Below are positions 2,328 through 24,066 of a DNA stretch of 64,000 bases, one piece after another. Below the pieces are notes generated by a model. The model was not told the DNA's origin. It did no database searches and saw only the letters and a program-made list of their open reading frames with translations. This DNA is from Methyloversatilis sp. GTDB lineage: Bacteria; Pseudomonadota; Gammaproteobacteria; Burkholderiales; Rhodocyclaceae. The first letter of the stretch is position 1. Every line of letters begins with the position of its first letter. The translations under genes and the position numbers were made by a program. The stretch spans positions 1 through 64,000 of the forward strand of contig JAEUNO010000019.1 of assembly GCA_016791045.1 (NCBI GenBank), given 5' to 3'.

Positions 2328-4079
<1,752 letters not shown>

Positions 4080-4177: not shown

Positions 4178-5041
4178 TCAGCTGCTGGTGTTCGCCGGCT
4201 TCAGGTCACGCTCTGCCTCCTGATGTCGCGCGAGGCGGCTCAGATGCGGCACCAATGCGTCAGCCGACAGCGGCGGTGTCGCCGGCGCGGCGCCGGTCAG
4301 GGCGCGGTAGGCGGTCTGCATCGCGTCCAGCGCCGCCAGCATGCCGTGATGCCCATCGAGATGCAGGCGCGCGCCGCAACTCGCCAGCGAGTCGAGCCTT
4401 GCCAGATCGCAGCCGGCGTAGCCAATCGACATCCACGGCAAGCGGATATGCGCGGACATCTTCGCAAGCAGTTCGTCATTGTCGGCGCCGACGATGCACA
4501 GCGCGTCGACACCGGTGTCGGCGTAACGCGTCAGGCGCTCGATCAGTTCGTCGTCCAATCTGCAGGCGCGCGCCGAGGTCCGCGCGAACAGCACGAAAGA
4601 CGGATCGCGTCGCGCGGTTACCGCGGCGCGCAGCTTGCCGACCGCCTCTTCTATCGGTATCAGCGAGTCGGTGTGCCGGCCGTAAGCCTGCTGCAGCCAG
4701 CTATCCTCGATCGACAGGCCAGCGGCACCTGCCGCTTCCAGCTCGCCCACCGTGCGCATCACGTTGAGTGCGTTGCCGTAGCCACCGTCGGCGTCGACGA
4801 TCAGCGCGATGTCGCTGGCGTCGGCGATGCGGCGCGTCAGCCCGCTCAGTTCGGTCAGCGTGATCAGGTTCAGGTCGGGCAGACCGAGCAGCGTCAATGC
4901 GGCCGCTGAACCGCCGAGAATGCCGATACCGAAGCCGGCAGCCTCGGCCAGTCGTGCCGACATCGGATCGAATACCGACGGGCAGTTCAGGCATCGCGTC
5001 CCGGTGAGCGCATTGCGCAGCCGCATGCGCCGGGCGCTCAT
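4178..5041 (-). CDS. PEP mutase/isocitrate lyase family enzyme, oxaloacetate decarboxylase-like
   Basis: 287 residues from the ATG at 5041, which overlaps the leuD-like stop as ATGA. The family core is clear: the metal-binding DADGGYG (83-89), IED (111-113), and FARTSA (152-157) where isocitrate lyases have their substrate-contacting strand. The KKCGH active-site loop of true isocitrate and methylisocitrate lyases is absent, which places it with the short oxaloacetate decarboxylase/hydrolase branch. Those enzymes are Mg-dependent and act on 2-oxo di-acids or cleave 2,3-disubstituted C4 units. As the last gene of the catabolic operon it would fit removal of oxaloacetate or a close analogue. 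A 2,3-dimethylmalate- or methylisocitrate-lyase-like activity is the main alternative. Confidence 0.75.
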
Positions 5042-5682
5042 GCCGGAAACAGCCACGGTTCGAGCGTGCGCCGCCGCAGCTCGTAGGCGCGAATGTCGTC
5101 CGCCTGCTGCAGCGTCAATGCGATGTCGTCCAGACCATGCAGCAGGCAGTGCTTGCGATAGGCGTCCACCTCGAAACCCAGCACTTCGCCATCCGGCAGA
5201 CGCAGCGTCTGTTCCGCCAAATCGACCGTCACCCGGTAGTCCTTGCGTCCGTCGCCGATGTCGGCGAACAGGCGGTCGATCTGTCGGGTCGGTAGCACGA
5301 CGGGCAGCACGCCGTTCTTGAAGCAGTTGTTGAAGAAGATGTCGGCGAAGCTCGGCGCCACGATGACGCGAAAGCCATAGTCGGCAAGTGCCCACAGCGC
5401 GTGTTCGCGGCTGGAGCCGCAGCCGAAGTTGTCGCGTGCGAGCAGGATCTGCGCGCATTTGCAGGACGGCCGATTGAGCACGAAATCCGGTTCGGGCTCG
5501 CGCGCCGATTGCGGCTTGCCGGGATAGCCCGGGTCGCGGTAGCGCCAGGCGTCGAACAGGTTGTCGCCGAAGCCGGTGCGCGCGATCGACTTCATGAACT
5601 GCTTCGGAATCAGCGCGTCGGTGTCGACGTCGGCGCGGTCCAGAGGGGCGACGTGTGAGGTGAGTGCGGTGAAAGGCTGCAT
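5038..5682 (-). CDS. leuD: LeuD-type hydro-lyase small subunit
   Basis: 214 residues, the usual LeuD length. The swivelling domain carries [15 protein letters not shown] (25-39) and the substrate-loop motif [14 protein letters not shown] (86-99). These match 3-isopropylmalate dehydratase small subunits closely. The partner is LeuC immediately upstream. The start MQPFTAL at 5682 follows the leuC stop by one base. No leuB follows, and the gene sits inside a catabolic operon, so hydration or isomerisation of a citrate- or alkylmalate-like catabolite is as plausible as leucine synthesis. Confidence 0.88.
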
Positions 5683-5683
5683 G

Positions 5684-7090
5684 TCAGGCCTCCGCGCCGA
5701 TATCGACGAAGTGGCCGGCCAGTGCAACGGCGGCGGCCATCGCCGGGCTGACAAGATGGGTGCGGCCGCCGGTACCCTGGCGACCTTCGAAATTGCGGTT
5801 CGAGGTCGAGGCGCAGCGTTCGCCGAGCCTCAGGCTGTCGTCATTCATGCCCAGACACATCGAACAGCCGGGTTCGCGCCACTCGAAGCCGGCCTCGATG
5901 AAGACGCGATCAAGTCCTTCCGCTTCCGCCTGTGCCTTGACCAGACCGGAGCCGGGCACCACCAGCGCCTGACTGATCGACGCTGCGACGCGGCCACCGC
6001 GCGCGATGGCGGCGGCGGCGCGCAGATCCTCGATGCGCGCGTTGGTGCATGAACCGATGAACACGCGGTCGGGACGGATGTCGGTGATCGCGGTGCCCGG
6101 TTCGAGCGCCATGTAGTCGAGTGCGCGCTGCATCTGCGCGCGGCGCACCGGGTCGGCTTCGTCGCGCGGGTCAGGCACATGGCCGTCGACCGGTACCGTC
6201 TGCGCCGGCGACGTGCCCCAGCTCACCATTGGGCGCAGCGCTCCGGCGTCGATCTGCAGCCGTGCGTCGAACACCGCGCCATCGTCGCTGACCAGCGTGC
6301 GCCAGTACTTGCAGGCGGCGTCCCACTGCGCGCCTCGAGGTGCCAGCGGCCGGCCTTTGAGGTAATCCAGCGTCACCGCGTCGACCGCCACCAGCGCGAC
6401 GCGCGCACCGGCCTCGATCGCCATATTGCACAGGGTCATCCGGCCTTCCATCGACAGTCCGCGCACGGTGTCGCCGCCAAATTCGATGGCGCAGCCCGCG
6501 CCGCCCGCCACCCCGAGTCGGCGGATCAGATCGAGCACCAGGTCCTTTGCAGTCACGCCCCGTGGCAGCGCGCCGCTGACGTCGACGTACAGCGTCTTCA
6601 TGCGGTCGACCGGCAGGCACTGCGTGGCCAGCACGTGTTCGACCTCGGACGTGCCGACGCCGAAGGCCAGCGCGGCGAAGGCGCCGTGCGTGCTGGTGTG
6701 CGAATCGCCGGCCACCACCGTCATGCCGGGCAGCGTGGCGCCCTGTTCCGGCCCGATCACGTGGATGATACCCTGCCGCCGGTCGCCGAGCGGAAACAAC
6801 GTGATGCCAAATTCGCGACAGTTGTGTCCGAGCCGCTCGACCTGCATGCGCGACAGCGGGTCGCGGATCTCGCCGGTGTGCGAAGTGGTCGGCACATTGT
6901 GGTCGGCCGTTGCCAGTACCGTGTCGCGACGCCATGGCGTGCGACCGGCAAGCCGCAGACCCTCGAAGGCCTGCGGGCTGGTCACCTCATAGACCAGATG
7001 GCGGTCGACGTAGAGCAGCGCCGTGCTCTCGCCGCGCATGGCAACGACGTGGCGGCTCCACAGCTTGTCGAACAGCGTGCGCGGCGTCAT
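5684..7090 (-). CDS. leuC: LeuC-type aconitase-family large subunit
   Basis: 468 residues, the usual LeuC length. The 4Fe-4S cysteine ligands appear in VFIGSCTN (about 348) and GCSMCLG (about 408 and 411). The family blocks YIDRHLV-like [28 protein letters not shown] and [14 protein letters not shown] are all present, so the enzyme should be active with the small subunit at 5038. The ATG at 7090 overlaps the ligase stop as TGATG, which indicates translational coupling to a catabolic gene. Aconitase-family enzymes of this subtype interconvert 2- and 3-substituted malates through an ene-diacid. I infer a catabolic substrate from context; a second, biosynthetic leuCDB set would be expected elsewhere. 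Confidence 0.9.
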
Positions 7091-8769
7091 CAGCGCATCG
7101 CCGCCGGGACGGCTTCCATGTCGCGGGCACGGGCGATCAGCGCCGCGTCCTTCTTCAGCAGATGCTTGGCCACGCGCTGCGTCGGCGTCTTCGGCAGGGC
7201 ATCGGCAAACACCAGGTAACGCGGTACCTTGATCGCCGCCATGTGGGCGCGGCACCAGTCGATCACCGCCTCGTGCGTCGGTGCGGCGCCGTCGCGCGCA
7301 ACCAGCACCGCCAGGATGTCGTCCTCGCCCAGTTCGGACGGCACCGCAATGGTCGCGGCCTCAGCCAGATCCGGGTGTCGGCCCAGGACGGCGTCGAGCT
7401 CGGCGCCGGATATGTTCTCGCCGCGCTTGCGGATGATGTCCTTCTTGCGCGCGACGAAGTAGAAGTAGCCGTCGGCGTCCATGCGCACCAGATCACCGGT
7501 GGCGAACCAGCCGTCGCGGAAGGCGTCGGCGGTCTGCTGCGGGTCGTTCAGGTAGGCGACGAAAAGCGTCGGCGTCCGCACCAGCAGCTCGCCGGTTTCG
7601 CCGACCGCGACGTCACGGCCGTCGTCGTCGACCACACGCAGCTGCGCGAACGGTCCGTCGAAGCGCGGATGCACGCCGGCGCGGCCTATGCTGCCAATCT
7701 TGTGCGGACCTTCGTACGGGTTGCTGCAGGTCGATGGAATCTCCGACATGCCGTAGCCCTCGATCAGCAGCGGCACGCCGAACTCCTGCTGGAACAGGCG
7801 GAACATGTCAGCACTGATGGGACCGCCGTAGATCTTGCGGATGCGGTGCGCCGGATTGAATTCCGCGCGCGGCCGCAAGCCCAGTATCGTGCCCAGTGCG
7901 GCCAGGATGTTGAGCTGCGTGGCGCGGGTATCGGCCGCGGTCTGCCAGAAGGTCGAAGCGCTGAACTTCGCTGCGGTGATGAAGGTGCCACCGCAGGCCA
8001 GCGCCCCGGCGAAGGAGTAGAACAGCGCGTTGACGTGGAACAGCGGGAACACCGTGAGCATGCGCTCGCGCGGTTGCAACCTCAGCCGGCCGACGAATAC
8101 CTCGGCCGACCACACCACCGTGCGCTGACTGTGCACCACGCCCTTCGGGAAGCCGGTGGTGCCGGATGTGTAGATGACCACCGCCGGATCATCCGGCGAA
8201 GGCAAAGGCAGCGTCGGCGCGTTGGCAGGCGATTCGCCGGTAATGCCTGCCAACGCGGCGGCGGCGCTTGCCGCGTCGAGTCCGAACGGTTCCAGCGGCG
8301 CCACGCGTGCCGGGCGAGAACAGCGCGCGGCGATCCGCTCGACGCGCGCGCACAGCGACTGCGGTGCATAGGCGGCGACCGACTGCGAGTGCTGCAGCTG
8401 GTAGTGCAGCTCGTCGTCGGTCAGCGCCGGATTGAGCGGAACGAATACGGCGCCGACGCGTGCCAGCGCCAGGAAGAGCAGGACCGCGACGTCGCTGTTC
8501 GGCGCCACGTGTGCGACCGGGTCGCCAGCACGGACGCCCCGCGCGACCAGCGCAGCGGCCACTCCCTCGGCCGCTTCGTGCAACTGACGGTAAGTCCAGC
8601 TGCGCGACTGGAAAAGAACGGCTTCGGCATCCGGCATGACTGCAGTGCGCGATGCAAGGAGCGAGGGCAGGGTGTCGCCGTGCGGCGGAAAGAGTGCAAA
8701 CACCTGTGCTGGCGTCAGCTCGGCGGCAGGTTCTGCGGGCAGTTCGTCAGGAATCATGGTGTCCGGCAT
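7090..8769 (-). CDS. AMP-forming acyl-CoA ligase
   Basis: 559 residues of the ANL superfamily, cytosolic. The P-loop [11 protein letters not shown] (200-210) is intact. It is followed by [15 protein letters not shown] and the C-terminal hinge region [14 protein letters not shown]. The C-terminal subdomain ends with the [11 protein letters not shown] stretch, in which a lysine corresponds to the catalytic lysine of the family. It activates a carboxylic acid to a CoA thioester via the adenylate; the acid is unknown but presumably comes from the surrounding ring-cleavage pathway. The start at 8769 abuts the reductase stop with no gap. Crotonobetaine/carnitine-CoA ligase-like enzymes are similar in layout. 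Confidence 0.88.
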
Positions 8770-9735
8770 TCAGAGATCGATCACCAGCAGCGGGCCCCGC
8801 GAGCGCGAGCAGCAGGGCGTGAACTGATCGTTCTTCGCCTGTTCCGCCGGGGTCATGTACATGTCGCGGTGGTCCGGCGTGCCGTCGATGACGCGCGTCA
8901 GGCAGGTGCCGCACACGCCCTGTTCGCACGACACCGGCAGTTCCACGCCGGCGGCGGCCAGCGCTTGGGCGACGGTCTGGTCGCGGCGCACCGGAACCAC
9001 ACGGCCGGACTTCGCCAGCTTCACCTCGAAGTCGGTATCGGCGTCGGTCTGCACAGGCGCGCCGGCGAAGAACTCGTAGTGGATCTGCGCCTCCGGCCAG
9101 CCCTGCCCGCGCGCGGTCGCCAGCACCGCGTCCATGAAGCCCTTGGGGCCGCATACGTAAAGATGGATGCCCGCCTCCGGCCGTGCCAGCACCTGCTTCA
9201 TGTCGAAGGCCTGCGCCGCGTCGCCGTCGTCGTGGTGGAGGCTCACCCGCCCGGCCCATGCGGCGTTCGCCAGGCGGCTCCGGAAGGCGGTGCGGGCCGG
9301 CGAGCGGGTGCAGTAGTGCATCGTGAAATCGGCGCCGTCGGCCGCCAGCTGTTCGGCCATGCACAGCAGCGGTGTCACGCCGATGCCGCCCGCCAGCAGC
9401 AGATGGCTGCGCGCGTCGGCGGCCAGTTCGAAATGGTTGCGCGGTGTGCTGATGGTGAGCGTCGCCCCCTCGGCCAGTGCGTGCATCGCGCGCGATCCGC
9501 CACGAGAAGCCGGGTCGAGCAGTACGCCCAGCCGGTAGCGGCTGCGTTCGGCCGGATGGCCGCACAGCGAGTATTGGCGGATCAGTCCGTCGCCAAGCAT
9601 CACGTCGATGTGGGAACCGGCGGTGAAGGCGGGCAAGGCCGTGCCGTCGGCGCTCGCCAGTTCAAAACCGGCGATGCCTTCGGCCTCCGTCTCACGGCGC
9701 GCGATGCGCACCTGCAGCGTGTCGACGGTCGCCAT
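8770..9735 (-). CDS. Rieske oxygenase reductase (VanB/PDR family)
   Basis: 321 residues with the phthalate dioxygenase reductase order: FMN-binding domain (SHIDVMLGDGLIRQYSLCG, about 48-66), NAD domain (LLLAGGIGVTPLLCMAEQL), and a C-terminal plant-type ferredoxin. The ferredoxin cysteines are C270, C275 and C278 in CEQGVCGTC, with the fourth in TPCC (308 or 309). It passes electrons from NAD(P)H to the Rieske oxygenase encoded directly upstream. The two genes overlap as TGATG at 9735. The pairing and domain order match vanillate O-demethylase systems. Confidence 0.93.
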   Translation of the reverse strand: MATVDTLQVRIARRETEAEGIAGFELASADGTALPAFTAGSHIDVMLGDGLIRQYSLCGHPAERSRYRLGVLLDPASRGGSRAMHALAEGATLTISTPRNHFELAADARSHLLLAGGIGVTPLLCMAEQLAADGADFTMHYCTRSPARTAFRSRLANAAWAGRVSLHHDDGDAAQAFDMKQVLARPEAGIHLYVCGPKGFMDAVLATARGQGWPEAQIHYEFFAGAPVQTDADTDFEVKLAKSGRVVPVRRDQTVAQALAAAGVELPVSCEQGVCGTCLTRVIDGTPDHRDMYMTPAEQAKNDQFTPCCSRSRGPLLVIDL

Positions 9736-10787
9736 CAGACCGCCTGTTCCTTGCGGATGAGGCTTTCGAACAGTCGTCTGCCACGCACGCAGGTGGCGTC
9801 CGCCTTCAGCAGCACCTCTGGCGGCGTCGTGCCCAGCGTGGTGAGCATGGATTCGATCTCGCGGGTGGCCAGCATGTCCTCTTCGATCACCGCATTGAAG
9901 CTGGCCAGCATGGCCTTGCCGAAGGCGTCGTCGTCCTGCTTGAAGGTGCGGCCGTAAGCGAAGAAATAGTGCGCGGTATTCTTCGTGGCCGGCGTGATCG
10001 CGTGATAGACGCGCACCTTGCCGAGCACGGCACCCGGCTCGTCGCTGTCGGTCTTCGACTTGGACAGGAAGTCGTAGCCGGCATGCAGCGAGGGCAGGAA
10101 GAGCTTCATGCCGAACGCACGGTCCACCCTGCCCTGGTAACCGAACACCTGCGCATACAGCGGCGGACACTGGATGTTCAGGAACTCGCGCTGGCTGCTG
10201 ATCCAGTTGTCGCCGTTGTCCCGCTTTTCCTCCACCACGCTGTAGTCGCCCGCGCCGATGCTGGTCTGGTGCAGGAAGCCGAGGTGGGTCAGATCGAACA
10301 GGTTGTCGTGCATCAGCATGTAGCGGCCGGGCACCGCGTGGTAGGTGCCGGATTCGACTGTGAATGCCGGATCGGTCAGGCCGATCTCATGGTGATCCGG
10401 AATCAGCGATTCGTCGGCCAGCGCCGGATCGCCCATCCATATCCACAGCCACTTCCAGCGTTCGACCAGCGGGTAGGCTTTCACCTTGCAGCTGGCCGGC
10501 ACCATGCCCTGCGACGGGATGCGCACGCAGTCACCTTTCGGCGAGAAGGTGATGCCGTGGTACATGCATTCGATGTTGTCGCCGACCAGCCGGCTCTTGC
10601 CGAGCGGGAAGTGGCGGTGCGGGCAGCGGCCTTCGAGCGCGACCGCGCGGCCGTCTTCGGTGCGGTAGAAGGCAATCGGCTCGTTCAGGATCCAGCGCTC
10701 CATTGGCTCGCGCCTGATCTCGTCGGCCCAGGCGGCGATATACCACTGGTTGCGGGGTGCGAAGCAGCCTTCGGGTAGCGGGTACAT
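9735..10787 (-). CDS. Rieske non-heme iron oxygenase, VanA-like
   Basis: 350 residues. The N-terminal Rieske centre has C55-x-H57 and C74-x2-H77 (CPHRH, CMYH). The catalytic iron site is in NLFDLTHLGFLH, with H168 and H173 as the two histidines; an aspartate near residue 305 is the expected third ligand. Length and order are those of single-component O-demethylase/ring-hydroxylase subunits of the vanillate/phthalate group, which need only the reductase encoded next. The likely reaction is O-demethylation or hydroxylation of an aromatic or terpenoid acid. AGAGGAGA precedes the ATG at 10787; a longer open frame upstream runs into the hydrolase gene and is not used. Confidence 0.92.
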   Translation of the reverse strand: MYPLPEGCFAPRNQWYIAAWADEIRREPMERWILNEPIAFYRTEDGRAVALEGRCPHRHFPLGKSRLVGDNIECMYHGITFSPKGDCVRIPSQGMVPASCKVKAYPLVERWKWLWIWMGDPALADESLIPDHHEIGLTDPAFTVESGTYHAVPGRYMLMHDNLFDLTHLGFLHQTSIGAGDYSVVEEKRDNGDNWISSQREFLNIQCPPLYAQVFGYQGRVDRAFGMKLFLPSLHAGYDFLSKSKTDSDEPGAVLGKVRVYHAITPATKNTAHYFFAYGRTFKQDDDAFGKAMLASFNAVIEEDMLATREIESMLTTLGTTPPEVLLKADATCVRGRRLFESLIRKEQAV

Positions 10788-10819
10788 GGTGTCTCCTCTG
10801 ATGTTCTGTATGGCCTTGC

Positions 10820-11701
10820 TCAGCCATGCCGCGCGACCGCGCGAGCGGCGCGCCGGCAGGGCGGCGGATCGGTGATGAATTCCAGCAGTTCGTGGGTGAA
10901 GCGCGCCGGGTCGTCGCGGAAGGGCGCGTGGCGTGCACCGGCATGGATCGATGTGCGGGTATCGGGCAGCAGTGCTCGGAACACGTCGGCGCGCGACGGC
11001 AGCACGATGCCGTCGTGCGCGCCGTTCACCCACATCAGCGGCAGGTCGAGACCGCCGATCAGCGCGTCGTAATCCAGCCCGCGCTGGCGCATCCAGCGCC
11101 GGTGCTCGACCGGACAGCGCGCCGCGACCGCGGTCAGTGCGGCAAAGTCGGCGCTGTCGCGCGGTACGTCCAGCACGTCCCCGATGAAGCGCCCGGTGGC
11201 GTCGGCAACGGTGGCTTCGTCCTCCGCGCACAGCGCGTCCAGAATGACGTGATCCGGCCCTGCCGAAGCGAAATGCGCGAGGCTGGCAGCCGCCACGAAC
11301 TGGATGCCGTGCAGCCCGTCGGTGCCGTAGCGACGCGCATAGTCGAGCACGCCGCGGCCACCGAAGGACCAGGCGACCACCGTCGGCTGCACCATGCCCG
11401 AGGCGCGGATGACGGCGTCCAAATCGGCTGCCCAGGCGTCACCGGAGGTGTAGTGAGCCGCCGTCGGCATGCGGTCCGATGCGCCGTGACCGCGCAGATC
11501 AGGCATGACCAGACGGCAGCGTTCGAGCAATGCCGCCTGCGCATAGAGCGGCGCCCACACCGTGTGGTCGAGCGCGAAGCCGTGCAGCAGCACGACCGGA
11601 AACCCGTCCGGATTGCCGGCCGACCACCAAGCGATACGGCAGCCGTCCTCGGACACGCAGTCGTGGCGCAGGAAGGCCGGACGCGGAATGTGTTGCGTCA
11701 T
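10820..11701 (-). CDS. Alpha/beta hydrolase
   Basis: 293 residues, cytosolic. It has the oxyanion motif LLHGF (38-42), the DLRGHGASD block (68-76) and a nucleophile elbow AWSFG with Ser112; the usual first Gly is Ala here. NGAHDG supplies the acid and GARHAPF the base near the C-terminus. The fold and size match C-C bond hydrolases of meta-cleavage pathways, enol-lactonases and haloperoxidase-like esterases. In this operon it would hydrolyse a ring-cleavage product or lactone. The start at 11701 lies 19 bases after the VOC stop, behind a GGTGGA site. Confidence 0.85.
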   Translation of the reverse strand: MTQHIPRPAFLRHDCVSEDGCRIAWWSAGNPDGFPVVLLHGFALDHTVWAPLYAQAALLERCRLVMPDLRGHGASDRMPTAAHYTSGDAWAADLDAVIRASGMVQPTVVAWSFGGRGVLDYARRYGTDGLHGIQFVAAASLAHFASAGPDHVILDALCAEDEATVADATGRFIGDVLDVPRDSADFAALTAVAARCPVEHRRWMRQRGLDYDALIGGLDLPLMWVNGAHDGIVLPSRADVFRALLPDTRTSIHAGARHAPFRDDPARFTHELLEFITDPPPCRRAARAVARHG

Positions 11702-11720
11702 GTCATCCACCGTCGGCGCT

Positions 11721-12320
11721 TCAGGCCTTCGCGGCCTCGCCGAAGTGCTGGGCACGGATCTGCTTCCATTGCGCCATGTCGGCATCGACCGACTGGTACT
11801 TGTCGGCGAAGAAGCGTTCGGTCACCGTCACATTGGTGGCGAATTCGACCCGCATGCCGTTCGGGTCGTAGAAATAGATCGAGCGGCAGTAGCCGTGATC
11901 GATCTCAAGTACGTCGACGCCTGCGTCCTGCAGCTTCTTCTTGTAGCCGTCTATGGTTTCGTGGCCGCCGCTCACTTCCATCGCGATGTGGTGGCCGAAC
12001 TGGTCCACCTCAGGGAAGTCCGCCGGCGTGAAGTGCGCCGGGTAATCGAAAAATGCCAAAGCGCTGCCGTCGGCCAGTTCGAAGTACAGGTGCATGTAGG
12101 GCTTGGGCTCATTGGTCAGCGGATCGATGGGCTCGATGCAGGCGGCGACCAGCGGAAAGCCGAGAATGCCCTCGTAAAAGGCGCGCGTCTCTTCCGCGCT
12201 GCGGCAGCGGAAGGCGTGGTGGTGCAGCATCTTCACCTTGTTGGCGGCGCGCCGCTCGGCGGCGACCTCGCGTGCGCGGTCCAGGTCGATGTCGCTCGGG
12301 GTCCAGTTCTGAAGACTCAT
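11721..12320 (-). CDS. VOC family protein, possible single-domain extradiol dioxygenase
   Basis: 199 residues with one vicinal-oxygen-chelate module. Candidate metal ligands are H34/H35 at the first strand (MLHHHAFRC), H110/H111 (FGHHIAM) and E159 (MRVEFAT). This is the two-His one-Glu set used by extradiol dioxygenases, with Y150 nearby in the usual YFYDPNG block. A conserved N-terminal helix of about 28 residues precedes it. It may cleave a catechol-type ring or act as an isomerase/lyase on a pathway intermediate. The ribosome site AAGGAGGAG before the ATG at 12320 is the strongest in this part of the operon. Confidence 0.75.
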   Translation of the reverse strand: MSLQNWTPSDIDLDRAREVAAERRAANKVKMLHHHAFRCRSAEETRAFYEGILGFPLVAACIEPIDPLTNEPKPYMHLYFELADGSALAFFDYPAHFTPADFPEVDQFGHHIAMEVSGGHETIDGYKKKLQDAGVDVLEIDHGYCRSIYFYDPNGMRVEFATNVTVTERFFADKYQSVDADMAQWKQIRAQHFGEAAKA

Positions 12321-12352
12321 GGTGTGCTCCTCCTTGATGTGGGATGGCCGGT

Positions 12353-15882: not shown

Positions 15883-16274
15883 CGGCGCTCTCCTGAACCG
15901 GTGGTCCGCACGGCATCGAGATGCTCCACATACTCGACCACCAGGCCGTCCGGATGCTTCATCACCATCACCTTGCCGGTGACCACGTCCGTCAGCGCTT
16001 CGAGCGTTTCGCACCCCTGTGCGCTCAGGGCTGTCCGGAAGGATTCGATATCCCGTACCAGATAGACGGCGCCTGCCATGGAGATCGCGGACGCGATCTG
16101 TGGGTGATAGCCCACCAGGACCATTTTTCCGACCTGCGCGACGCGCAGCCGGCCGTCCAGCAGATCCAGATCCAGCTCGACCGGCGCGGCAAGCAGCCCG
16201 CAGTAGAAGTCGACGGCCGCCGCCAACCGGTCAAGGGTCATGTTGTGTCTGACCAGAATGTCCAGAACCTTCAT
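15879..16274 (-). CDS. Small VOC/glyoxalase-like protein
   Basis: 131 residues, a single glyoxalase-like module from MKVLDILVRH to the closing MKHPDGLVVEYVEH strand. H10 and E115, the glutamate of the VEYVEH strand, are candidate metal ligands. The central histidine seen in the larger VOC protein of this operon is not obvious, so catalysis is uncertain. GGGAG precedes the ATG at 16274. Its position between the flavin monooxygenase and YCF48 genes makes a pathway role likely, perhaps as an isomerase or binding protein. Confidence 0.72.
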   Translation of the reverse strand: MKVLDILVRHNMTLDRLAAAVDFYCGLLAAPVELDLDLLDGRLRVAQVGKMVLVGYHPQIASAISMAGAVYLVRDIESFRTALSAQGCETLEALTDVVTGKVMVMKHPDGLVVEYVEHLDAVRTTGSGERR

Positions 16275-16317
16275 GTGCTCTCCCGCGCACTGAACGCGTA
16301 CCGTGCGGAACCGGTGC

Positions 16318-18006
16318 TCATGCCGCGCATCCGCTGACTGGCCGGAACCACTGTTCGAGGTAGCCGAGCATGGCCGCCGCCTCCTCCGGCACGCAGCTCA
16401 TGCCGACATACAGGTCCGGGCGAACCAGGATGAGCCGGCCCTCGGGACCGATGCCATAACGCGCCAGGATTTCGCCCGTTTCGTCACATACCCGATGGTC
16501 GAAATCGAATCCCGTGTCATCGCCACGGCCTTCCGGCGAGGCCGTCGCCTTGGTCGCCCGGTCGGGGTCCGGATGCTCGGACATCCGTGTGTTCCCCTGC
16601 GGAACCAGGCAGGCCACGACCTGGGACGGATAGCGCCGCTCCAGTTCGTCGCGCAAGGCACGCCCGGCGGACAGATGGCTGTCGACATCAGCGCCCGGCA
16701 CCACGAGCAGGGTGAATCGCGGATGTCTGAACACGTCGTAAAGGCGCTTCCGGGGTTCGCGCACCAGCAGTGCGTCGGGTGCCCGCTCGCCTGCCCGCGG
16801 GCCTGCCACGGCATGAATCAACGGCGGCACGAGCGCCACGTCGCGGTAGTTGTGCGACAGCCCGGACACGAGCTGTATCGTGCGGGCCTCCCAGCCTGGC
16901 TCCTGCGTGTAGTGCAGGCGCTCCTCCGGTGCGATGCCGAAACCCATCACGATTTCGTGCGTCGCCATCGCCCCTTCGGTGATCTGCTCACCGATCGGTT
17001 TGCGCTCGCGCTCGTAACTGTCGAGCACGGTGTCGGCCGCCAGCCCCTTGAAGACGGCCGCAAGCTTCCAGCCGAGGTTGAAGGCGTCCTGCATGCACCC
17101 GTTCATGCCCTGGCCACCCGAAGGCGAGTGCACATGCGATGCATCACCGCAGATGAGCATGCGACCGTTTCGATAGCGGTCCGCGATGTTGTTCCGGATC
17201 GCCCAGGCCGTCGCCCACTCGGGCTCTCCGATCTTCATGCCGATGCCCAGCCGGTCCGCCACGGTCTGAAAGGCGGCGCGTGCATCATCGGCATGGACCA
17301 GCGCACCTGTCGGCTCGCTCATGTAGATGCGCCAGCACCGGCCCGGCAGCTTGGTGCAGTTCATGAACAACTCCTCGTCAAAGAAGTAGTTCATCCAGTG
17401 GTCGTCAAAGTTCACGTCGGTGAGCTCGACGTCCATCATGGCCATTGCGGCCACTTCTTCGCCGGGGAAATCGATGCCGGCGGCGCCGCGTACGAAGCTG
17501 CGTACGCCGTCGCAACCGACAACCCATGAATGCCGGCGGGTATCGACCGTTCCGTCCGGCCGCATGATCCGGGCTTCAACCGACCCTGCATCCTGGCTCA
17601 GCCCCACCAGCTCCGTCCTGTACTCCGGCTTCAGGCTGTACTGGGAGAACAGGTGCTCGCGCAGGACCTGTTCGAAGTCGTTCTGGTTGATCTTGTAGTA
17701 GAACGCGAAGCGCGTCGGCAGCACGCGGTAGTCGGTGCGCGGCTGCTCGCTCTCCGGCAGATGGGGAAAGTGATAGATGTTGCCCGGGCACTGGAGACAG
17801 ACCTCCTCGAGTCGGTGCGCAATGCCCATGTGCTCGAACATTTCCATCGAGCGCGCGTGTACCGTCATCGCCCTCGTCGTGTGTGAAGGCCCCTTTCTCT
17901 TTTCGATCAGGCGTACCGGCACGTTTCGGCGCAAAAGTTCATGCGCAAGGATCAGGCCGGTCGGTCCTGCCCCGACGATCAGAACGGATTCTTCAATGCT
18001 GCTCAT
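16318..18006 (-). CDS. Class A flavin monooxygenase (PHBH/MhpA/phenol hydroxylase type)
   Basis: 562 residues. The N-terminal Rossmann FAD motif GAGPTG (12-17) is followed by a conserved RAMTVHARSMEMFEHMG block and by the second FAD motif GDASHVHSPSGGQGMNG (around 290). The C-terminal ~150 residues are the thioredoxin-like extension found in phenol hydroxylase, MhpA and TfdB homologues. The enzyme should use NAD(P)H and O2 to hydroxylate an aromatic or enolic ring, preparing it for ring cleavage by the dioxygenases of the operon. GGGGAG precedes the ATG at 18006. No signal peptide is seen. Confidence 0.9.
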   Translation of the reverse strand: MSSIEESVLIVGAGPTGLILAHELLRRNVPVRLIEKRKGPSHTTRAMTVHARSMEMFEHMGIAHRLEEVCLQCPGNIYHFPHLPESEQPRTDYRVLPTRFAFYYKINQNDFEQVLREHLFSQYSLKPEYRTELVGLSQDAGSVEARIMRPDGTVDTRRHSWVVGCDGVRSFVRGAAGIDFPGEEVAAMAMMDVELTDVNFDDHWMNYFFDEELFMNCTKLPGRCWRIYMSEPTGALVHADDARAAFQTVADRLGIGMKIGEPEWATAWAIRNNIADRYRNGRMLICGDASHVHSPSGGQGMNGCMQDAFNLGWKLAAVFKGLAADTVLDSYERERKPIGEQITEGAMATHEIVMGFGIAPEERLHYTQEPGWEARTIQLVSGLSHNYRDVALVPPLIHAVAGPRAGERAPDALLVREPRKRLYDVFRHPRFTLLVVPGADVDSHLSAGRALRDELERRYPSQVVACLVPQGNTRMSEHPDPDRATKATASPEGRGDDTGFDFDHRVCDETGEILARYGIGPEGRLILVRPDLYVGMSCVPEEAAAMLGYLEQWFRPVSGCAA

Positions 18007-18110
18007 GTTGCACTCCCCGGGTCATCACTTGTTGTCCTGTTCCACAGCCGCCCGGCGACCGTACCCCTCCTGCAGACGGGCCGAGCGGTCGCGGGCATGG
18101 CCGGCTCGCC

Positions 18111-19457
18111 TCACCGCACTCCGCGGCGAGACAGCGATTCCGGCGTGTAGTAGCTGGGAGGAAGTGGATCGATGACCTGGATCTGGTTGTGCTGATCGCT
18201 CATCGTCGTGTATGAGTACGTGCCCTTGATAAGGTCCAGCGTCGTGTAGGTTTCCTGGCCGACAGCCGGTATCTCGTACTGCATCCACGGGAAACCATAG
18301 CTGGTGTGCCACAGGGTTCCCTGTGCATCCCAGGTGTTGCCGATCGCGGCGATGTACGTGTCCTCGTCGAGGTAGAGCCGGCGCTTCGGACGCACGTCAC
18401 GCTTGCCGGGACGGACGGTCCCTTCGAGCACCCAGACGCGGTGAACCTCCCAACGGACGAGCTCGGGATTCACGAAGTGCTTGCTCATCGCGTCCTCCGG
18501 CTTCGATGCAACGAGCCGGTTGTTGTTGTAGGGAATGATGAGTTCCTTCTTGCCGGCGATCTTCCAGTCATAGTTGGTCGCAGGGCCGAACCAGACGAAC
18601 ACCTGATCGAAGAAGTCGACACCGGAGGCCACGAAGTTCGGTGTGTCGCAGCAGATGGTCGGCGCGCGACGGACACGGCGCTGACCGACGAGGTACTGCC
18701 AGGCCGGTCGCGTGTTGTCCAGCTGGTCGTAGTACATAAGCATTTCCCCTGCGCGGATCGAAGGCGATTCGACCGACTGAAGGTTCTGGTAGTACGCGCC
18801 ACCGTTGTTCTTGATGTGCTCCGGGGACAGACCTTTCGTGTAGTACGGAATCGTCACCTCGTTCACCGCGCCGCTGGCCAGCGAAGAAGTGCCGTTCGTA
18901 TCGATGGTGTAGGTACGGAAGGCCTGGCGATAGCCCTGCGAACGCACGCGCAAGGAGTGATTCCAGAGCAGCTCCGCACCGGTTTTCGGAATCGGGAAAG
19001 GAATGCCGCCGTATGCATCGATGACCGAATCGCCATCCATCTTTGCGCGCGTGGCGTTCTTGAACGTTTCGTCATACACCCATTGCGGCGCGGCCGCGCT
19101 CCGGTGCGTGGGGTAGACGTTGATCTTGTAGTCCGGGTACTTTTTGAGCAGGTACTGCTGCCCTTCGTCCAGCTTGTCCGCGTACTGCGCCATATTGGCC
19201 GCCGTCACGGTGTACAGCGGCTTCTCGTCGGCGAACGGATCGGGCCGCGGCTGGCCGCTCTTGTAGCCGGCCGGAACCTTGGTGTAGCCACCGTTCCACG
19301 CAGGAATGCTGCCGTCCTTGTTGCCCGCCTTCTCGCCGCCCAGCGGTGTCAGTTCCGACTTGAGCTTTGCGGCTTCATCGGCGGTCACGGCCGCCCAGCC
19401 CGTACTCGCCAGCGATGCGGCCACCAGCGCGGCCGCGAGGGTTTTCATCGAAATCAT
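18111..19457 (-). CDS. DUF1329 periplasmic/outer-membrane-associated protein
   Basis: 448 residues with a Sec signal (KTLAAALVAASLASTGWA) and a mature protein of the DUF1329 family. It contains the family-typical KVPAGYKSGQ near the start and RKRLYLDEDT-like KRRLYLDEDTYI in the last third. The fold is related to lipoprotein carriers LolA/LolB, so it may shuttle a hydrophobic ligand in the periplasm. It sits 18 bases after the DUF1302 gene; these two families are regularly paired next to catabolic genes for steroids, terpenes and similar compounds. Met1 or Met4 could be the start. Confidence 0.88.
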   Translation of the reverse strand: MISMKTLAAALVAASLASTGWAAVTADEAAKLKSELTPLGGEKAGNKDGSIPAWNGGYTKVPAGYKSGQPRPDPFADEKPLYTVTAANMAQYADKLDEGQQYLLKKYPDYKINVYPTHRSAAAPQWVYDETFKNATRAKMDGDSVIDAYGGIPFPIPKTGAELLWNHSLRVRSQGYRQAFRTYTIDTNGTSSLASGAVNEVTIPYYTKGLSPEHIKNNGGAYYQNLQSVESPSIRAGEMLMYYDQLDNTRPAWQYLVGQRRVRRAPTICCDTPNFVASGVDFFDQVFVWFGPATNYDWKIAGKKELIIPYNNNRLVASKPEDAMSKHFVNPELVRWEVHRVWVLEGTVRPGKRDVRPKRRLYLDEDTYIAAIGNTWDAQGTLWHTSYGFPWMQYEIPAVGQETYTTLDLIKGTYSYTTMSDQHNQIQVIDPLPPSYYTPESLSRRGVR

Positions 19458-19475
19458 GTGCCGTCTCCGGTGTTT

Positions 19476-21107
19476 TTAGAAAGTGCGCTGCAGCGAAACC
19501 GAGATGAAGTCGCGGTCCGCGTAGTTCTGTTTGAAGGTGAGGTTGGCATCGGTGCCCAGTGCGTTGCCGGCACGGCCGATGTAATGCGTGTAGTTGATGC
19601 CGCCGCGCCACACCTGCTGATAGACACCCTTGACGCCGATGGACAGGTCACCGCCGTGCTCGACGCCGCCGTTGAACAGTTGCACCACGGACGAATTGCC
19701 CTTCGGGTTGTAGCCAAGGCCGATGGGCATCGACAGATCGAGCCCGGGTGCGGCTTGGAACCACTGCGGTTCGAACACGAAGCGCAGACCCCAGGCGTCA
19801 CGCGAGGTGTTCGGATCCAGCTCTGCCGCGTTCTTCGTGATGCTGGTACGCCGGTTCCAGGCGATTTCGCCCACCAGCGAGGCGTTGTCCCAGAACTTCG
19901 ACCGGTTCAGGAAGAAGATGGCCGACAGGTTGGCGTGTGCGGAATTGCCGATTGCATAGAGCGCATTGCTGTCGTTGTCGGCCACACCGGTGGGGCTCAT
20001 GTCGACCACCGGCCCGCTGACCAGCGGCGTGTTGCGGCGGACTGAAAACTCACCTGCAAGATTGAAGTCAGCGATCTCTGTACTGAAGCTCACACCATAG
20101 GCGCGCACGTCCTCCGGATAGACCATCTGCAGTTCGCCCGCCACCGGCCGCAGATAGACCTGGAAGTTCTTGTCGTGATAACGCACGGCGTAGAAACCGA
20201 ATTCGATGTCCGTGCCTTCCGGGCGCCAGCGCAGCTGCACGCCGCCCTGTCCGGAATCCGGCGCATTGCCGTCTTCGACACGCGGCACACCGACGCCCGG
20301 TGCAAACAGGAAGCGCTCCGTACCCGAGCCGAGCACGTCGGCGCCGGAGAAGTAGCTGCCGACACCCGGAATGCGGTTCTTGCGGAACTCGAACTGGTAG
20401 TAGGCGCCGAGCGAAACCGTGTCGGTCAGCTGGATCTGGCCCGACACCTGGTTCACCGGCAGGATGATTTCCTTGAACTGCGAGTTCGGCACCGACAGCA
20501 GTTTCACGATGTCGGTCGGCGACTGCGCAGCGGCGATACCGTTGGCGCCGAAGAACAGCGTTTCGCCGTACAGGATGGAGTGGCGGCCGAGGCGGACGTT
20601 GCCGCGCTCGCCGTTGGCATAGACGAACGCATCCAGCCATTCCGCGCGTCCGCCGTGCAGGTCGCGGGTCGCGTCGACGAACTCGTCCGACGGGCGCGAC
20701 AGCTGGTTGATCGTGGCCGGCGAGTTGTTGTCGTTCGAGCGCTGGTACACCGTGTCGTACCAGCCGGCGCCGCTCAGCCGCAGGCCATAGCTGCTCTTGT
20801 AGCTCAGGTCGAACTCGGACAGCAGGTCGATTCGATTGGAAATCAGGCCGCGGCCGAAATTGCGGTTGCCGTCGTCCTGGTTGATGTCGCTGGTCAGCGT
20901 GCGTGAGCGGTCTTCGAGGCGCCAGGCGTTCGAGTACTTCACCGTGTTGTCCCAGCGCATCTTCACGTCCGGATTGCCGGACTCGATTTCGAACGCCATG
21001 GCCGGTGCAGCGCCACCCAGTCCAGCCATGGCGGCGATGGCCAGCGGCAGCGCCTTGCGGCATGAGCGCCTGTTCCTGCCCGGCTGCGATGCATCTCTCT
21101 TGTTCAT
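19476..21107 (-). CDS. DUF1302 outer-membrane protein
   Basis: 543 residues. A twin-Arg-poor Sec signal (about 18-38, ending PAMA) leads into FEIESGNPDVKMRWDNTVKYS, the characteristic DUF1302 opening. The rest alternates short amphipathic strands and ends in SVSLQRTF, with the terminal phenylalanine expected of beta-barrel proteins. It is probably a porin-like channel for the hydrophobic growth substrate. It is coupled to DUF1329 downstream. AAGGAGGAG lies just before the ATG at 21107. Confidence 0.9.
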   Translation of the reverse strand: MNKRDASQPGRNRRSCRKALPLAIAAMAGLGGAAPAMAFEIESGNPDVKMRWDNTVKYSNAWRLEDRSRTLTSDINQDDGNRNFGRGLISNRIDLLSEFDLSYKSSYGLRLSGAGWYDTVYQRSNDNNSPATINQLSRPSDEFVDATRDLHGGRAEWLDAFVYANGERGNVRLGRHSILYGETLFFGANGIAAAQSPTDIVKLLSVPNSQFKEIILPVNQVSGQIQLTDTVSLGAYYQFEFRKNRIPGVGSYFSGADVLGSGTERFLFAPGVGVPRVEDGNAPDSGQGGVQLRWRPEGTDIEFGFYAVRYHDKNFQVYLRPVAGELQMVYPEDVRAYGVSFSTEIADFNLAGEFSVRRNTPLVSGPVVDMSPTGVADNDSNALYAIGNSAHANLSAIFFLNRSKFWDNASLVGEIAWNRRTSITKNAAELDPNTSRDAWGLRFVFEPQWFQAAPGLDLSMPIGLGYNPKGNSSVVQLFNGGVEHGGDLSIGVKGVYQQVWRGGINYTHYIGRAGNALGTDANLTFKQNYADRDFISVSLQRTF

Positions 21108-21173
21108 TTCTCCTCCTTCTTGGTATGTACGGCCCCGGACGAGCTGGGCCTTGCGTCGTGTGTCTGCCTTCCT

Positions 21174-22340
21174 TCAGTCGCTGCCCTTGTGCGACGGGCC
21201 GTCGTCGTTCTGCTGCAAGCTCTTGCGGATGTCGTCGGCGTGCTCGTCGAGCAGCGGCGGCGGCTGCACGTCGAAGGCGCGCCGGCCGTCGAAGGACACC
21301 GGGAAGCGGATGGTCCGGAACGGGCCCATCTGCGGATGGCGCGCGCTGATCTCGAGTTCGAGGTGGCGCACCTGCGGGTCGGTCAGCACTTCGTCGGTGT
21401 CGTACATCGGCGCGTGCGGCACGTCGCGCTCTGCCAGCCGTACGCACCAGGCGGCACGCGTGTCGGTCGCGAAGATCTCTCGCATCAGCGCGATCAGTTC
21501 TTCGTAGTGATTGATGCGCGCCTCGCGCGAGCAGAAGCGCGGGTCGCTGAAGATGTCCGGCCGGCCCATGGCGTCGGCCAGCCCCTGCCAGAACTTCTCC
21601 GGCGAGGACATGTGCAGCGCCAGCCACTTGCCGTCGCTGCAACGCATGACATAGGACTGAGAGACGCTGGGGCGGCTGAACGGTCCCATGACTTCGCCTT
21701 CCGACAGCAGGTGGGTGAAGGCGTCGAGATTGAAGTGGCACATCGCCTCCAGCATCGACACCTCGACCGTGCGGCCGACGCCGGTGCGTGCGCGCTCATA
21801 CAGCGCGCCGAGGATGCCGAAGGCCGCGTAGTAGCCGGTCATCGCGTCGGCGACGGCCGGCCCCACGACGCGCGGATCCGCCGGGTTCACCATCAGCTTC
21901 AGATATCCGCTTGCAGCCTGGGCCACCGTGTCGTAACTCGGCCGTTGTGCAGCCGGGCCGGTCTGCCCGAAGCCACTGATGGCGCAATAGATGAGCCGCG
22001 GGTTCAGCGCCCGCAATCGCGCTTCGCCGGCCCCCAGACGTTCGGCTGCACCCGGGCGGAAGTTCTGGATATAGACGTCGGCGCTGCGGATGAGGTCGTC
22101 GAACACCGCGAGGTCGTCGGCGTTCTTCGGGTTCAGCGCGATGCTGCGCTTGTTGCGGTTGTAGGTCTGGAAGTGCGGGCTGTAGAGGCCGCCCTTGAAC
22201 GCCCGGAAGGGGTCACCCGATTCCGGCTGTTCGACCTTGATCACGTCCGCGCCCAGATCACCCAGGATCATCCCGGCCGCCGGGCCGGTGATGAAGGTGC
22301 CCTGTTCGATCACACGCACGCCGTCGAGCACGCCGCTCAT
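21174..22340 (-). CDS. CaiB/BaiF family III CoA-transferase
   Basis: 388 residues of the class III CoA-transferase fold. The N-terminal VRVIEQGTFITGPAAGMILGDLGADVIKVE (8-37) and NRNKRSIALN (61-70) blocks are typical. The catalytic aspartate is D165 in PAVADAMTG. It transfers CoA between dicarboxylates (often succinyl-CoA) and an acid such as itaconate, citramalate, mesaconate or an aromatic acid. The start at 22340 overlaps the citryl-CoA-lyase-like gene as ATGA. The adjacency suggests that the transferase makes the thioester that the lyase cleaves. Confidence 0.88.
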   Translation of the reverse strand: MSGVLDGVRVIEQGTFITGPAAGMILGDLGADVIKVEQPESGDPFRAFKGGLYSPHFQTYNRNKRSIALNPKNADDLAVFDDLIRSADVYIQNFRPGAAERLGAGEARLRALNPRLIYCAISGFGQTGPAAQRPSYDTVAQAASGYLKLMVNPADPRVVGPAVADAMTGYYAAFGILGALYERARTGVGRTVEVSMLEAMCHFNLDAFTHLLSEGEVMGPFSRPSVSQSYVMRCSDGKWLALHMSSPEKFWQGLADAMGRPDIFSDPRFCSREARINHYEELIALMREIFATDTRAAWCVRLAERDVPHAPMYDTDEVLTDPQVRHLELEISARHPQMGPFRTIRFPVSFDGRRAFDVQPPPLLDEHADDIRKSLQQNDDGPSHKGSD

Positions 22341-23137
22341 TCCGCTGCTCCATCGCGTACCGGTTCGCCGTCGTACTGCGCTTCGCGCGTCGCCTGGTAG
22401 GACAGCGCGAAGCCGATTGAGCGCTGCAGCTCTTCCGTAAGGTGGGCGATCAGGCCGGCGGTGCGCGCCAGTATCGGCACGCCCTTCAGTGCTTCCAGCG
22501 GAAAGCCCACGCCCAGCAGAAGCGCCGGAATGGCGGCCGATACGTTGAGCTTGAGGTCCTTGCCGATGACGTCGGGAATCGCCCTCTCGACCGCTTCGGC
22601 GATCGCCACGTAGCGCAGGTCGATGGCTTGTGCACGCGCCACCGTGAACAGTGCATCGACGCGCGGGTCACGCGCCTTGTGCTGCGGATGTCCGTACCCC
22701 GGAATGGCTTTCTTCGCCGCTCGCCAGCCCTGAACCACCTCGCGCGCCGCGGCGTCGATGTCGCCGCCGGCGGCGCGCTGCTCGACTTCGTGGAACAGCC
22801 GACCTGCGGTTTCCGATGCGCCGAGGATGACCGAGCCGCAACCCAGGATGCCGGCCGCTATCGCGCCCTGCAGCGCGTCGGGCGCCGCTGCCAGCGTCAT
22901 CCGGCTGGCCTGCACGCTGGGTACCAGCCCATGCTCGGCGATGGCGACCAGCGTTGCGTCGATGATGGCGGTCGCTGCCGGTGTGGCGCGGCGGCCAGTC
23001 ACCAGCAGATGGAAATACTCGGTGAAACCGATGCGGCCGATCAGGTCCGTGCACAGATCGGCACCGCGCACGGTGATGGAATGTTCGTCCGAGGTCGAGA
23101 TCGCCGTTCTCGGAATCACTTCCTTGCCTATCTTCAT
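22337..23137 (-). CDS. Citryl-CoA lyase-like protein (short citrate synthase fold)
   Basis: 266 residues, about half to two thirds of a citrate synthase and close to the citryl-CoA lyase domain of ATP-citrate lyase. Conserved parts include GHLVPSV-like EHGLVPSVQASR, GAIAAGILGCGSVILGASE, IPGYGHPQHKARDPR and the C-terminal RTAGLIAHLTEE. The catalytic His of the second block (GYGHPQH) is present. The known reaction is citryl-CoA to acetyl-CoA and oxaloacetate; related members may cleave substituted citryl-CoA. ATG at 23137, overlapping the dioxygenase stop as ATGA. Confidence 0.83.
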   Translation of the reverse strand: MKIGKEVIPRTAISTSDEHSITVRGADLCTDLIGRIGFTEYFHLLVTGRRATPAATAIIDATLVAIAEHGLVPSVQASRMTLAAAPDALQGAIAAGILGCGSVILGASETAGRLFHEVEQRAAGGDIDAAAREVVQGWRAAKKAIPGYGHPQHKARDPRVDALFTVARAQAIDLRYVAIAEAVERAIPDVIGKDLKLNVSAAIPALLLGVGFPLEALKGVPILARTAGLIAHLTEELQRSIGFALSYQATREAQYDGEPVRDGAAE

Positions 23138-24066
23138 TGTTCTGTCCTCGTGAGGCCGCACCGAAGTGCGGCGGACGCCTGTCCCGCGAACGGGGCGAGG
23201 CGGAAGTCGTAGTGGGCGGACCAGTAAGGCCGGTCGAGCAGTCGGCCGTCCGGTGCTTCGCCCGGCCCGTGCGCATCGAAGTCGACGATCAGACTGTCGC
23301 GCACGCCGAACACGGCGTCGGAATCGAGATAGAGGCTGTCGGCGACGAAGATATGGGTGGTCACCGGCACGAAACCGGTTGCCGACACCTTCATGTGGAT
23401 GTGGCCGGGGCGGTTCGGATGGCAACCCATGCGTTCGAGCATGCGGCCGACCGGGCCGTCCATCGGCACCGGGTAGTGGCCTGGACGGATGGACCAGAAC
23501 CAGTAGCGGCCCTGGTCGTCGGTGCGGAAGCGGCCGCGCGCCGGCATGCCGCGCCGTCCCCCGGCCGCCATGTCATACACGCCTTCACCGTCGCCTGACC
23601 AGACGTCGAGCAGCGCACCGGCGACCGGATTGCCTTCGGTGTCGGTGACGCGGCCGGCGTAGAAGGTCGGATCGCCTGCAACGCCCTCGCCGATGTCGGC
23701 GCCCAGGGGGCGATCGGGTGCGCCCTCGAGGTAGTAGGGGCCCTGCACCGTCGCTTCGGTCGCCTCGGTCGCGCCCCGGCCACTGCCGATGTCACGCGCC
23801 TGCTGCAGTGCCACCGTGAGCATGGACGCGCCGAGGGTGTCCGACAGCAGGATAAATTCCTGACGCTGTGCGTCGCACGCCCGTCCGGTCGCGGTCAGGA
23901 ATTCGATGCTGGCCATCCACTCCTCGGGCGTCAGGTCGACCTCGCGCATGAAGGCGTGCAGGTGCACCACCAGCGCACTCATCACTGCCTTGAAGCGCGG
24001 GTCGCTGCAGCTGTCCAGTCGGGCCAGCACGGCCTGTGTCAGGTCCGCGCCCACGGGGTGCGTCAT
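23134..24066 (-). CDS. Intradiol ring-cleavage dioxygenase (catechol/hydroxyquinol 1,2-type)
   Basis: 310 residues with the helical dioxygenase N-terminal domain (about 1-105) and a C-terminal beta-sandwich. The Fe(III) ligands line up as Y164 (GVYD), Y198 (GHYPVP), H222 and H224 (RPGHIHMK), matching known catechol 1,2-dioxygenases almost by number. The RFRTDDQGRYWFWSIRPG strand is typical of hydroxyquinol/chlorocatechol members. It opens a catecholic ring between the hydroxyls to give a muconate or maleylacetate product. As the first gene of the operon it lies opposite the LysR gene, behind GGAGGAGA at the ATG. Confidence 0.92.
   Translation of the reverse strand: MTHPVGADLTQAVLARLDSCSDPRFKAVMSALVVHLHAFMREVDLTPEEWMASIEFLTATGRACDAQRQEFILLSDTLGASMLTVALQQARDIGSGRGATEATEATVQGPYYLEGAPDRPLGADIGEGVAGDPTFYAGRVTDTEGNPVAGALLDVWSGDGEGVYDMAAGGRRGMPARGRFRTDDQGRYWFWSIRPGHYPVPMDGPVGRMLERMGCHPNRPGHIHMKVSATGFVPVTTHIFVADSLYLDSDAVFGVRDSLIVDFDAHGPGEAPDGRLLDRPYWSAHYDFRLAPFAGQASAALRCGLTRTEQ

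Follow-up and report, generated by a model that had tools for sequence, protein, structure and literature searches.

The degradation routes of many aromatic compounds meet at hydroxyquinol, the usual lower pathway of which consists of maleylacetate reductase followed by the 3-oxoadipate steps. Hydratases of the LeuCD type are known in aromatic routes from the gentisate pathway, of which a direct-hydrolysis variant with a maleate hydratase (HbzIJ, which we take to be LeuCD-like) was reportedly described by Liu, Xu and Zhou in 2015. The locus considered here lies in a window of 64,000 nucleotides from Methyloversatilis sp. (positions 1 to 64,000 of contig JAEUNO010000019.1, assembly GCA_016791045.1), which represents contig C8 of a genome in 47 contigs (3.54 Mb; about 92% complete). 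It is an operon of 17 tightly packed minus-strand genes running from 24066 down to 4178 (gene calls of the window). It resembles the hydroxyquinol pathway (hydroxyquinol 1,2-dioxygenase plus maleylacetate reductase) by the family of its ring-cleavage enzyme. Yet, it differs by the presence of a citrate-synthase-fold protein (CSL) with a CaiB-type CoA-transferase and LeuCD, by the lack of a detected maleylacetate reductase in 13 genomes of the genus and by an intradiol dioxygenase (IDO) belonging to a clade of its own. We read it tentatively, and with somewhat less than even confidence, as a LysR-controlled operon for a hydrophobic phenol, in which CaiB and CSL would split the ring-cleavage product before LeuCD hydrates the resulting maleate. 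The gene set is read as a variant of hydroxyquinol-type catabolism that did not appear among the papers listed from the literature searched. Most subscription journals lay outside that literature and, within this partial coverage, the initial annotation was right in knowing of no described pathway with this set of enzymes.

CSL (22337-23137), a protein named 'citryl-CoA lyase', passed the cut-off of the NCBIfam citryl-CoA lyase model NF004868 and found its best solved match in the citryl-CoA lyase 6HXP. It shares fold and sequence with citryl-CoA lyases (6HXP and the PRK06224 families), but differs from them by VILGA and NVS at the positions of the catalytic His and Asp. The roles of the HGGA His, the GxGH His and the NVD Asp are taken from citrate synthase. 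In an alignment of CSL with two citrate synthases and 6HXP, all three solved enzymes displayed the His of HGG together with an acidic residue (Asp or Glu); in CSL, the HGGA His was replaced (VILGA), as was the acid of NVD (NVS), and the His of GYGH was kept. The same pattern was observed in all 41 close rows of the CSL alignment (46-100% identity), where the GxGH His was conserved and VILG and N(V/I)S replaced His and Asp. None of the 47 rows, which include two loci entered twice under two ids, displayed His and Asp at the two corresponding positions, and one of the six remoter rows (L031) had a His one column earlier. Because two of the three catalytic residues are lost, CSL is unlikely, on the basis of this alignment, to perform textbook citryl-CoA cleavage, and the normal citryl-CoA lyase activity implied by the initial annotation was not supported by the comparison. 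A more specific and rather doubtful proposal is that CSL represents a citrate-synthase fold turned into a beta-keto-acyl-CoA C-C hydrolase, which, with CaiB and a recruited LeuCD, would form a lower hydroxyquinol route without maleylacetate reductase, alkyl rings included. In that case, many genes now called citryl-CoA lyase would be misnamed and the family name would have to be corrected.

The dioxygenase gene (23134-24066) is the first of the operon. IDO scored 253 bits with hydroxyquinol 1,2-dioxygenase 1TMX versus 117 for the best catechol enzyme, which places it, by sequence only, among the hydroxyquinol 1,2-dioxygenases. CSL-linked dioxygenases form their own clade: the 11 of them among 39 tree rows stood on one side of a branch with 100/99 support, none of the 28 unlinked rows fell inside, and the linkage label required one change compared with a shuffled mean of 9.8. 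One of the rows (L071) displayed a long branch, and the tree left out matches without a locus as well as two low-coverage Paraburkholderia tuberum pieces beside the CSL of that species. At one alignment position, Q, E or L occurred in CSL-linked enzymes and F or L in the 10 unlinked rows listed. The surroundings of unlinked hydroxyquinol-type dioxygenases (at least 43% identity) included a full or partial maleylacetate-reductase-like gene within about 1.5 kb in 10 of 19 loci, and near a Bosea plasmid enzyme (52.6% identical; outside the tree), at a distance of two genes, lay a gene annotated as maleylacetate reductase.

These observations bear on another alternative, an ordinary hydroxyquinol pathway with reductase and thiolase encoded elsewhere in the genome, for which CSL and LeuCD would be mere bystanders. 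The family of IDO agrees with it, the genome of the window is incomplete, and a scoA/pcaI-type subunit was over the cut-off in 12 of the 13 genus genomes, the exception being the window's own. Yet, the maleylacetate reductase query gave no match at E<=1e-15 in any of the 13, while matching control genomes at 53-100% identity; moreover, the CSL-linked dioxygenases are a separate clade and CSL-CaiB is conserved with one regulator and operator (see below). We therefore regard this alternative as improbable. Within the operon itself, no muconate cycloisomerase, pcaIJ or pcaF was found among the genes scanned by family, in agreement with the initial annotation, which had noted the lack of a usual lower pathway.

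LeuC (5684-7090) and LeuD (5038-5682) of the operon were both over their equivalog cut-offs (TIGR00170, 718 versus 560 bits; TIGR00171, 250 versus 116 bits). A second and higher-scoring LeuC occurred on contig C4 of the same genome. Of 23 LeuC rows placed in a tree, the core copies (11) formed one group (82/93, open fork) and 11 catabolic copies lay outside, the outlier being one distant row from the plasmid of Cupriavidus necator N-1; the core/catabolic label required two changes, whereas the mean after shuffling was 8.0. Four of 27 matches had been dropped (below 70% coverage) and L119 was kept despite an in-frame TGA. Catabolic LeuCs thus lie outside the core group, and a single clade for them is not established by this tree. 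The core copy on contig C4, together with the tree placement, ruled out the operon LeuCD as the leucine biosynthesis copy and agrees with its assignment to the catabolic unit in the initial annotation.

The last gene of the operon (4178-5041) encodes a member of the PEP-mutase/isocitrate-lyase superfamily (PEPM). Its best match was the PA4872 oxaloacetate decarboxylase (3B8I, 194 bits; the next reached 104), so the label 'decarboxylase-like' given to it by the initial annotation was appropriate, although PEPM occurs in the context of an aromatic operon. A role as methylisocitrate or dimethylmalate lyase was weakened by low scores (149 bits for prpB, cut-off 354) and by the missing Cys, a Tyr being aligned with the Cys of the CGH motif of 1MUM.

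The junctions between the 17 genes ranged from -4 to +104 bp, 14 of 16 being below 50 bp. The minus-strand unit was thus recovered as originally delimited, with all genes present and near-abutting, and its reading as one catabolic unit was supported. Gene order was kept, with some differences, in four of the 13 genus genomes (the window's own counted); since the gene set recurs in the same order, the operon is not a chance assembly. CSL was found at 84-100% identity in four of the 13 (own included), a fifth (G002) displaying a match of only 29% over 91 residues, and the best identity elsewhere among 101 genomes searched was 41%. The remainder of the operon adjoins CSL in the three other cluster-bearing genomes: G001 has one extra Rieske gene, G006 has two and is devoid of the flavin monooxygenase (FMO) and VOC2 genes, and PEPM, present in the window and G001, was searched for and not found in G005 and G006, which weakens it as an essential step. 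Extra Rieske oxygenases located between the RND and VOC1 genes (L026, 2156-3157; L036, 971-3060) were 31-34% identical to that of the window.

Beyond the genus, one scan of a species-genome collection with two short peptide patterns, which is not exhaustive, provided 32 CSL loci. They belong mainly to Burkholderiales, with Pseudomonas cyclaminis, Stutzerimonas KOS6, Solimonas and one remote Rhodobiaceae metagenome-assembled genome. In 31 of them, a CaiB gene lay at most about 3.5 kb away from CSL; IDO was present in nine and LeuCD in seven, counting two Methyloversatilis loci where LeuCD lies beyond the 10 kb flank. Among the nine, the P. tuberum dioxygenase (L046, 7917-8724) is split over two frames and is either broken or misread. 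LeuCD was present in five of the nine IDO-bearing loci and in two of the 23 without IDO (p=0.010; the 32 loci are not independent). CSL, CaiB and LeuCD were encountered together in Burkholderia glumae, P. cyclaminis, KOS6 and others; on B. glumae plasmids (nine records matched, one examined), the organization was LysR|IDO-CSL-FMO-CaiB-LeuC-LeuD-TIM-barrel. A core of LysR, CSL and CaiB, often with IDO and LeuCD, was thus encountered repeatedly, in Burkholderiales and in a few gammaproteobacteria. With regard to the co-occurrence of lower-pathway genes and dioxygenase that the initial annotation proposed to look for, the CSL-CaiB core and the association of LeuCD with IDO (in these five loci) were recovered, and PEPM was present in two of the four cluster-bearing genus genomes. 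A PEPM relative (42%) was observed in Bordetella genomosp. 13 (L050, 2567-3469), on the other strand, CaiB being about 5 kb and CSL 6.5 kb away. One of the more distant CSL relatives (35-41%), with 39% identity (L030, 6462-11828), lies beside CaiB, followed by what appears by eye to be a biotin carboxylase and its partner.

The operon further comprises VOC1, a VOC/glyoxalase-fold protein (11721-12320), an alpha/beta hydrolase (ABH, 10820-11701), a Rieske oxygenase of the VanA/DdmC type (9735-10787; 164 bits with dicamba O-demethylase), a VanB/PaaE-type ferredoxin reductase (8770-9735) and an AMP-forming acyl-CoA ligase (ACS, 7090-8769). All were named from family searches, the Rieske type resting on the dicamba O-demethylase match. 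This part may be viewed separately, as in a mosaic operon devoid of a single linear pathway, where IDO, CSL and CaiB would serve one ring and VOC1, ABH, the Rieske oxygenase, ACS, LeuCD and PEPM would act on a side chain or on another compound. The variable membership described above for G001, G005 and G006 would fit such an arrangement, as would the joint occurrence of VOC1, Rieske oxygenase and reductase in KOS6 and Solimonas, where no hydroxyquinol-type IDO was found. However, VOC1 (81% identical in both cases) and ABH also adjoin CSL-CaiB-LeuCD in P. tuberum and Duganella, and the operon displays tight spacing and one divergent regulator. A mosaic is considered unlikely, though far from negligible.

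In the order of steps that we favour, a hydroxyquinol-type ring would be prepared by FMO together with the Rieske oxygenase and its reductase, and its opening by IDO, judging from the family of this enzyme, would give a beta-keto diacid of the (alkyl)maleylacetate type. CaiB (21174-22340; family search), a class III CoA-transferase, would form the CoA ester, with succinyl-CoA as likely donor. CSL would then cleave this ester hydrolytically (retro-Claisen) into an acyl-CoA and (alkyl)maleate; this is the boldest step and would replace maleylacetate reductase, CoA-transferase and thiolase. The dedicated LeuCD would hydrate the maleate to (alkyl)malate, and PEPM, last and optional (two of four genomes), would act on a malate- or oxaloacetate-like acid. 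An AmeABCD-like cassette would handle the hydrophobic substrate at the envelope. Should this reading hold, the operon would share with the gentisate direct-hydrolysis route the release of maleate by C-C hydrolysis and its hydration by a LeuCD-type enzyme; that route presumably uses a free-acid hydrolase and has another ring-cleavage enzyme, whereas the operon would employ a CoA ester and CSL. CSL, CoA-transferase and LeuCD would then constitute an additional exit from hydroxyquinol, and the LeuCD paralogues observed on plasmids and in catabolic gene sets would acquire a function that can be tested directly.

The initial annotation had proposed the opposite order, which may be spelled out as follows: LeuCD would hydrate a maleate-type product to a 2-alkylmalate, CaiB would form its CoA ester, CSL would split it in an aldol-type reaction into acetyl-CoA and a 2-oxo acid, and PEPM would finish. 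Some arguments support it, such as the proximity of CSL to 6HXP, the above co-occurrence of CSL, CaiB and LeuCD, and a TctC-type family in 18 loci (one member scanned), which fits an imported organic acid. In addition, CaiB-HMG-CoA-lyase-LeuCD units were observed in C. necator N-1 and on plasmid pl4 of Sphingobium AntQ-1, as if HMG-CoA lyase (HMGL) and CSL were alternatives. Like the operon, these units associate a CoA-transferase with LeuCD outside leucine genes, but they display HMGL instead of CSL, and the N-1 CaiB is only 31% identical. The tricarboxylate-type chemistry suggested at first thus finds a resembling arrangement, the lyase of which is HMGL and not CSL. The pl4 unit (L184, 9855-14030; strain from soil contaminated with polycyclic aromatic hydrocarbons) is located behind a Tn3-family transposase gene.

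Several loci argue for the order that we favour. A ring-cleavage gene, a CoA activator and CSL occurred without LeuCD in the examined stretch of L048, L052, L070, L074 and the Variovorax locus L138, and an Aminobacter locus (L078) displayed CSL and a CoA activator with an extradiol enzyme, likewise without LeuCD in the stretch examined. The genomes of L048, L052, L070 and L074 each had a single LeuC at E<=1e-60, grouping with the core copies. In four of the 32 loci (L063, L066, L068 and L069), a maleylacetate-reductase-like gene directly preceded CSL-CaiB, and the three of these genomes that were searched gave no IDO at E<=1e-20. Finally, in C. necator N-1, a CSL-ligase-dioxygenase set, the dioxygenase being intradiol, adjoins a separate CaiB-HMGL-LeuCD set, so that both coexist side by side; in a similar run of C. 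metallidurans CH34, no HMGL match was found and CaiB occurred only in part. It is because of these LeuCD-free, reductase-preceded and N-1 loci that CSL is placed ahead of LeuCD, with the CoA-activated ring-cleavage product as its presumed substrate. Moreover, a hydroxyquinol-type product would offer LeuCD no 1,2-dicarboxylate alkene until it is split, and CSL lacks two of the three catalytic residues. Hydration by LeuCD ahead of the lyase is accordingly doubtful, and we give this order a minor share of our confidence.

A number of points weigh against the order with CSL before LeuCD, even though it is preferred here. We know of no precedent for a citrate-synthase fold performing retro-Claisen hydrolysis, and the residues that normally stabilize the acetyl-CoA enolate are those lost in CSL. 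The association of LeuCD with IDO fell to p=0.068 once two same-genus loci were dropped, in genomes with one LeuC the core LeuCD might also be used for catabolism, and the CaiB-HMGL-LeuCD units show that LeuCD also occurs beside a CoA-dependent lyase. VOC1, ABH and ACS hold no assigned role in the scheme. A maleylacetate-reductase-like gene with at least 50% identity is present elsewhere in three of the 11 genomes that have IDO beside CSL (G127; G124, in two pieces; G122, over 120 residues), the other eight being without it. CSL-CaiB also occurs without any IDO match at E<=1e-20 in eight of 22 genomes searched. KOS6 has CSL-CaiB with VOC1/Rieske and no IDO match, and Solimonas has the same combination with merely a 33% IDO match elsewhere. 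That genomes with stand-alone CSL-CaiB hide the same IDO elsewhere was considered and rejected, some intradiol match at this threshold being found in 14 of the 22 and none in these eight, and no unlinked row of the dioxygenase tree falling in the CSL-linked clade.

The CSL loci share one regulon-like arrangement of a LysR gene and its operator. A LysR orthologue was present in 31 of the 32 loci, 49-67% identical to that of P. cyclaminis (itself counted), as well as in the window (24201-25133, plus strand, divergent from the operon; family search), G001, G005 and G006. In 33 of the 35 stretches, the palindrome ATCGATGNCATCGAT was found with at most 3 mismatches no further than 180 bp from the LysR start, compared with 3.3% of 6,800 random stretches from the same loci, an enrichment that is partly circular since the motif was derived from the loci on which it was scored. 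The exceptions were L074 (4 mismatches) and L056 (6 mismatches, with a perfect copy further out). In L070 and L072, LysR lies downstream and a perfect copy precedes the CaiB gene. A motif scan of the window indicated a probable LysR operator at 24184-24198 (2 mismatches); because two further sites with 2 mismatches exist, both intragenic (12123 and 18168), it is picked out by its position and not by the strength of its match. Perfect copies outside CSL loci (three stretches) did not lie beside related genes among the matches listed, and a regulon acting in trans from other operator copies was not retained.

Four of the 17 genes, not mentioned by the initial annotation, are transport genes: those for a DUF1302 outer-membrane protein (19476-21107), a DUF1329 protein (18111-19457), a YCF48/BNR periplasmic protein (14779-15882) and an RND (MMPL) transporter (12353-14782). 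Following family searches, they were compared with AmeABCD of Castellaniella defragrans, which confers protection from monoterpenes and has been interpreted as an exporter (PMC6394551). The operon genes are AmeA-, AmeB-, AmeC- and AmeD-like, respectively, and stand in the same relative order. Here, though, the FMO and VOC2 genes separate the second gene of the set from the third, and the set is included in an aromatic operon. All components of an AmeABCD-type cassette are thus present, export being predicted from the genes alone. FMO (16318-18006; family search) is a class A flavin aromatic hydroxylase. VOC2 (15879-16274) is a small protein of 131 aa for which a Pfam search at 1e-5 gave no family, so that its VOC name is unconfirmed; it is kept at 98% in G001 and 54% in G005. 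The gene family names given earlier were otherwise borne out by profile searches.

This cassette suggests that the substrate of the operon may be a hydrophobic compound. Acids may be used by those relatives whose loci encode transporters of the TctC or MFS type, as judged from scanned representatives. On paper only, the candidates include terpenoid phenols and alkylresorcinols. If the proposed route holds, trihydroxylated thymol or carvacrol would yield, again on paper, either 2-isopropylmaleate (LeuCD's own substrate) and propionyl-CoA or citraconate and isovaleryl-CoA. The use of isovaleryl-CoA is conceivable because HMG-CoA lyase was over the cut-off in all 13 genus genomes; judged from this single leucine-degradation gene, the genus can perhaps use it.

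Other features of the window lie outside the operon. A tRNA-Leu (GAG) gene (2187-2271) is found just past its end and adjoins an ABC transporter gene (2328-4079). A DUF6976 protein (457 bits) is encoded at 198-1217. On the minus strand at 30780-34561, an AAA_23/SMC-type ATPase gene is adjacent to that of a calcineurin-like phosphoesterase, a pair that appears to resemble SbcCD.

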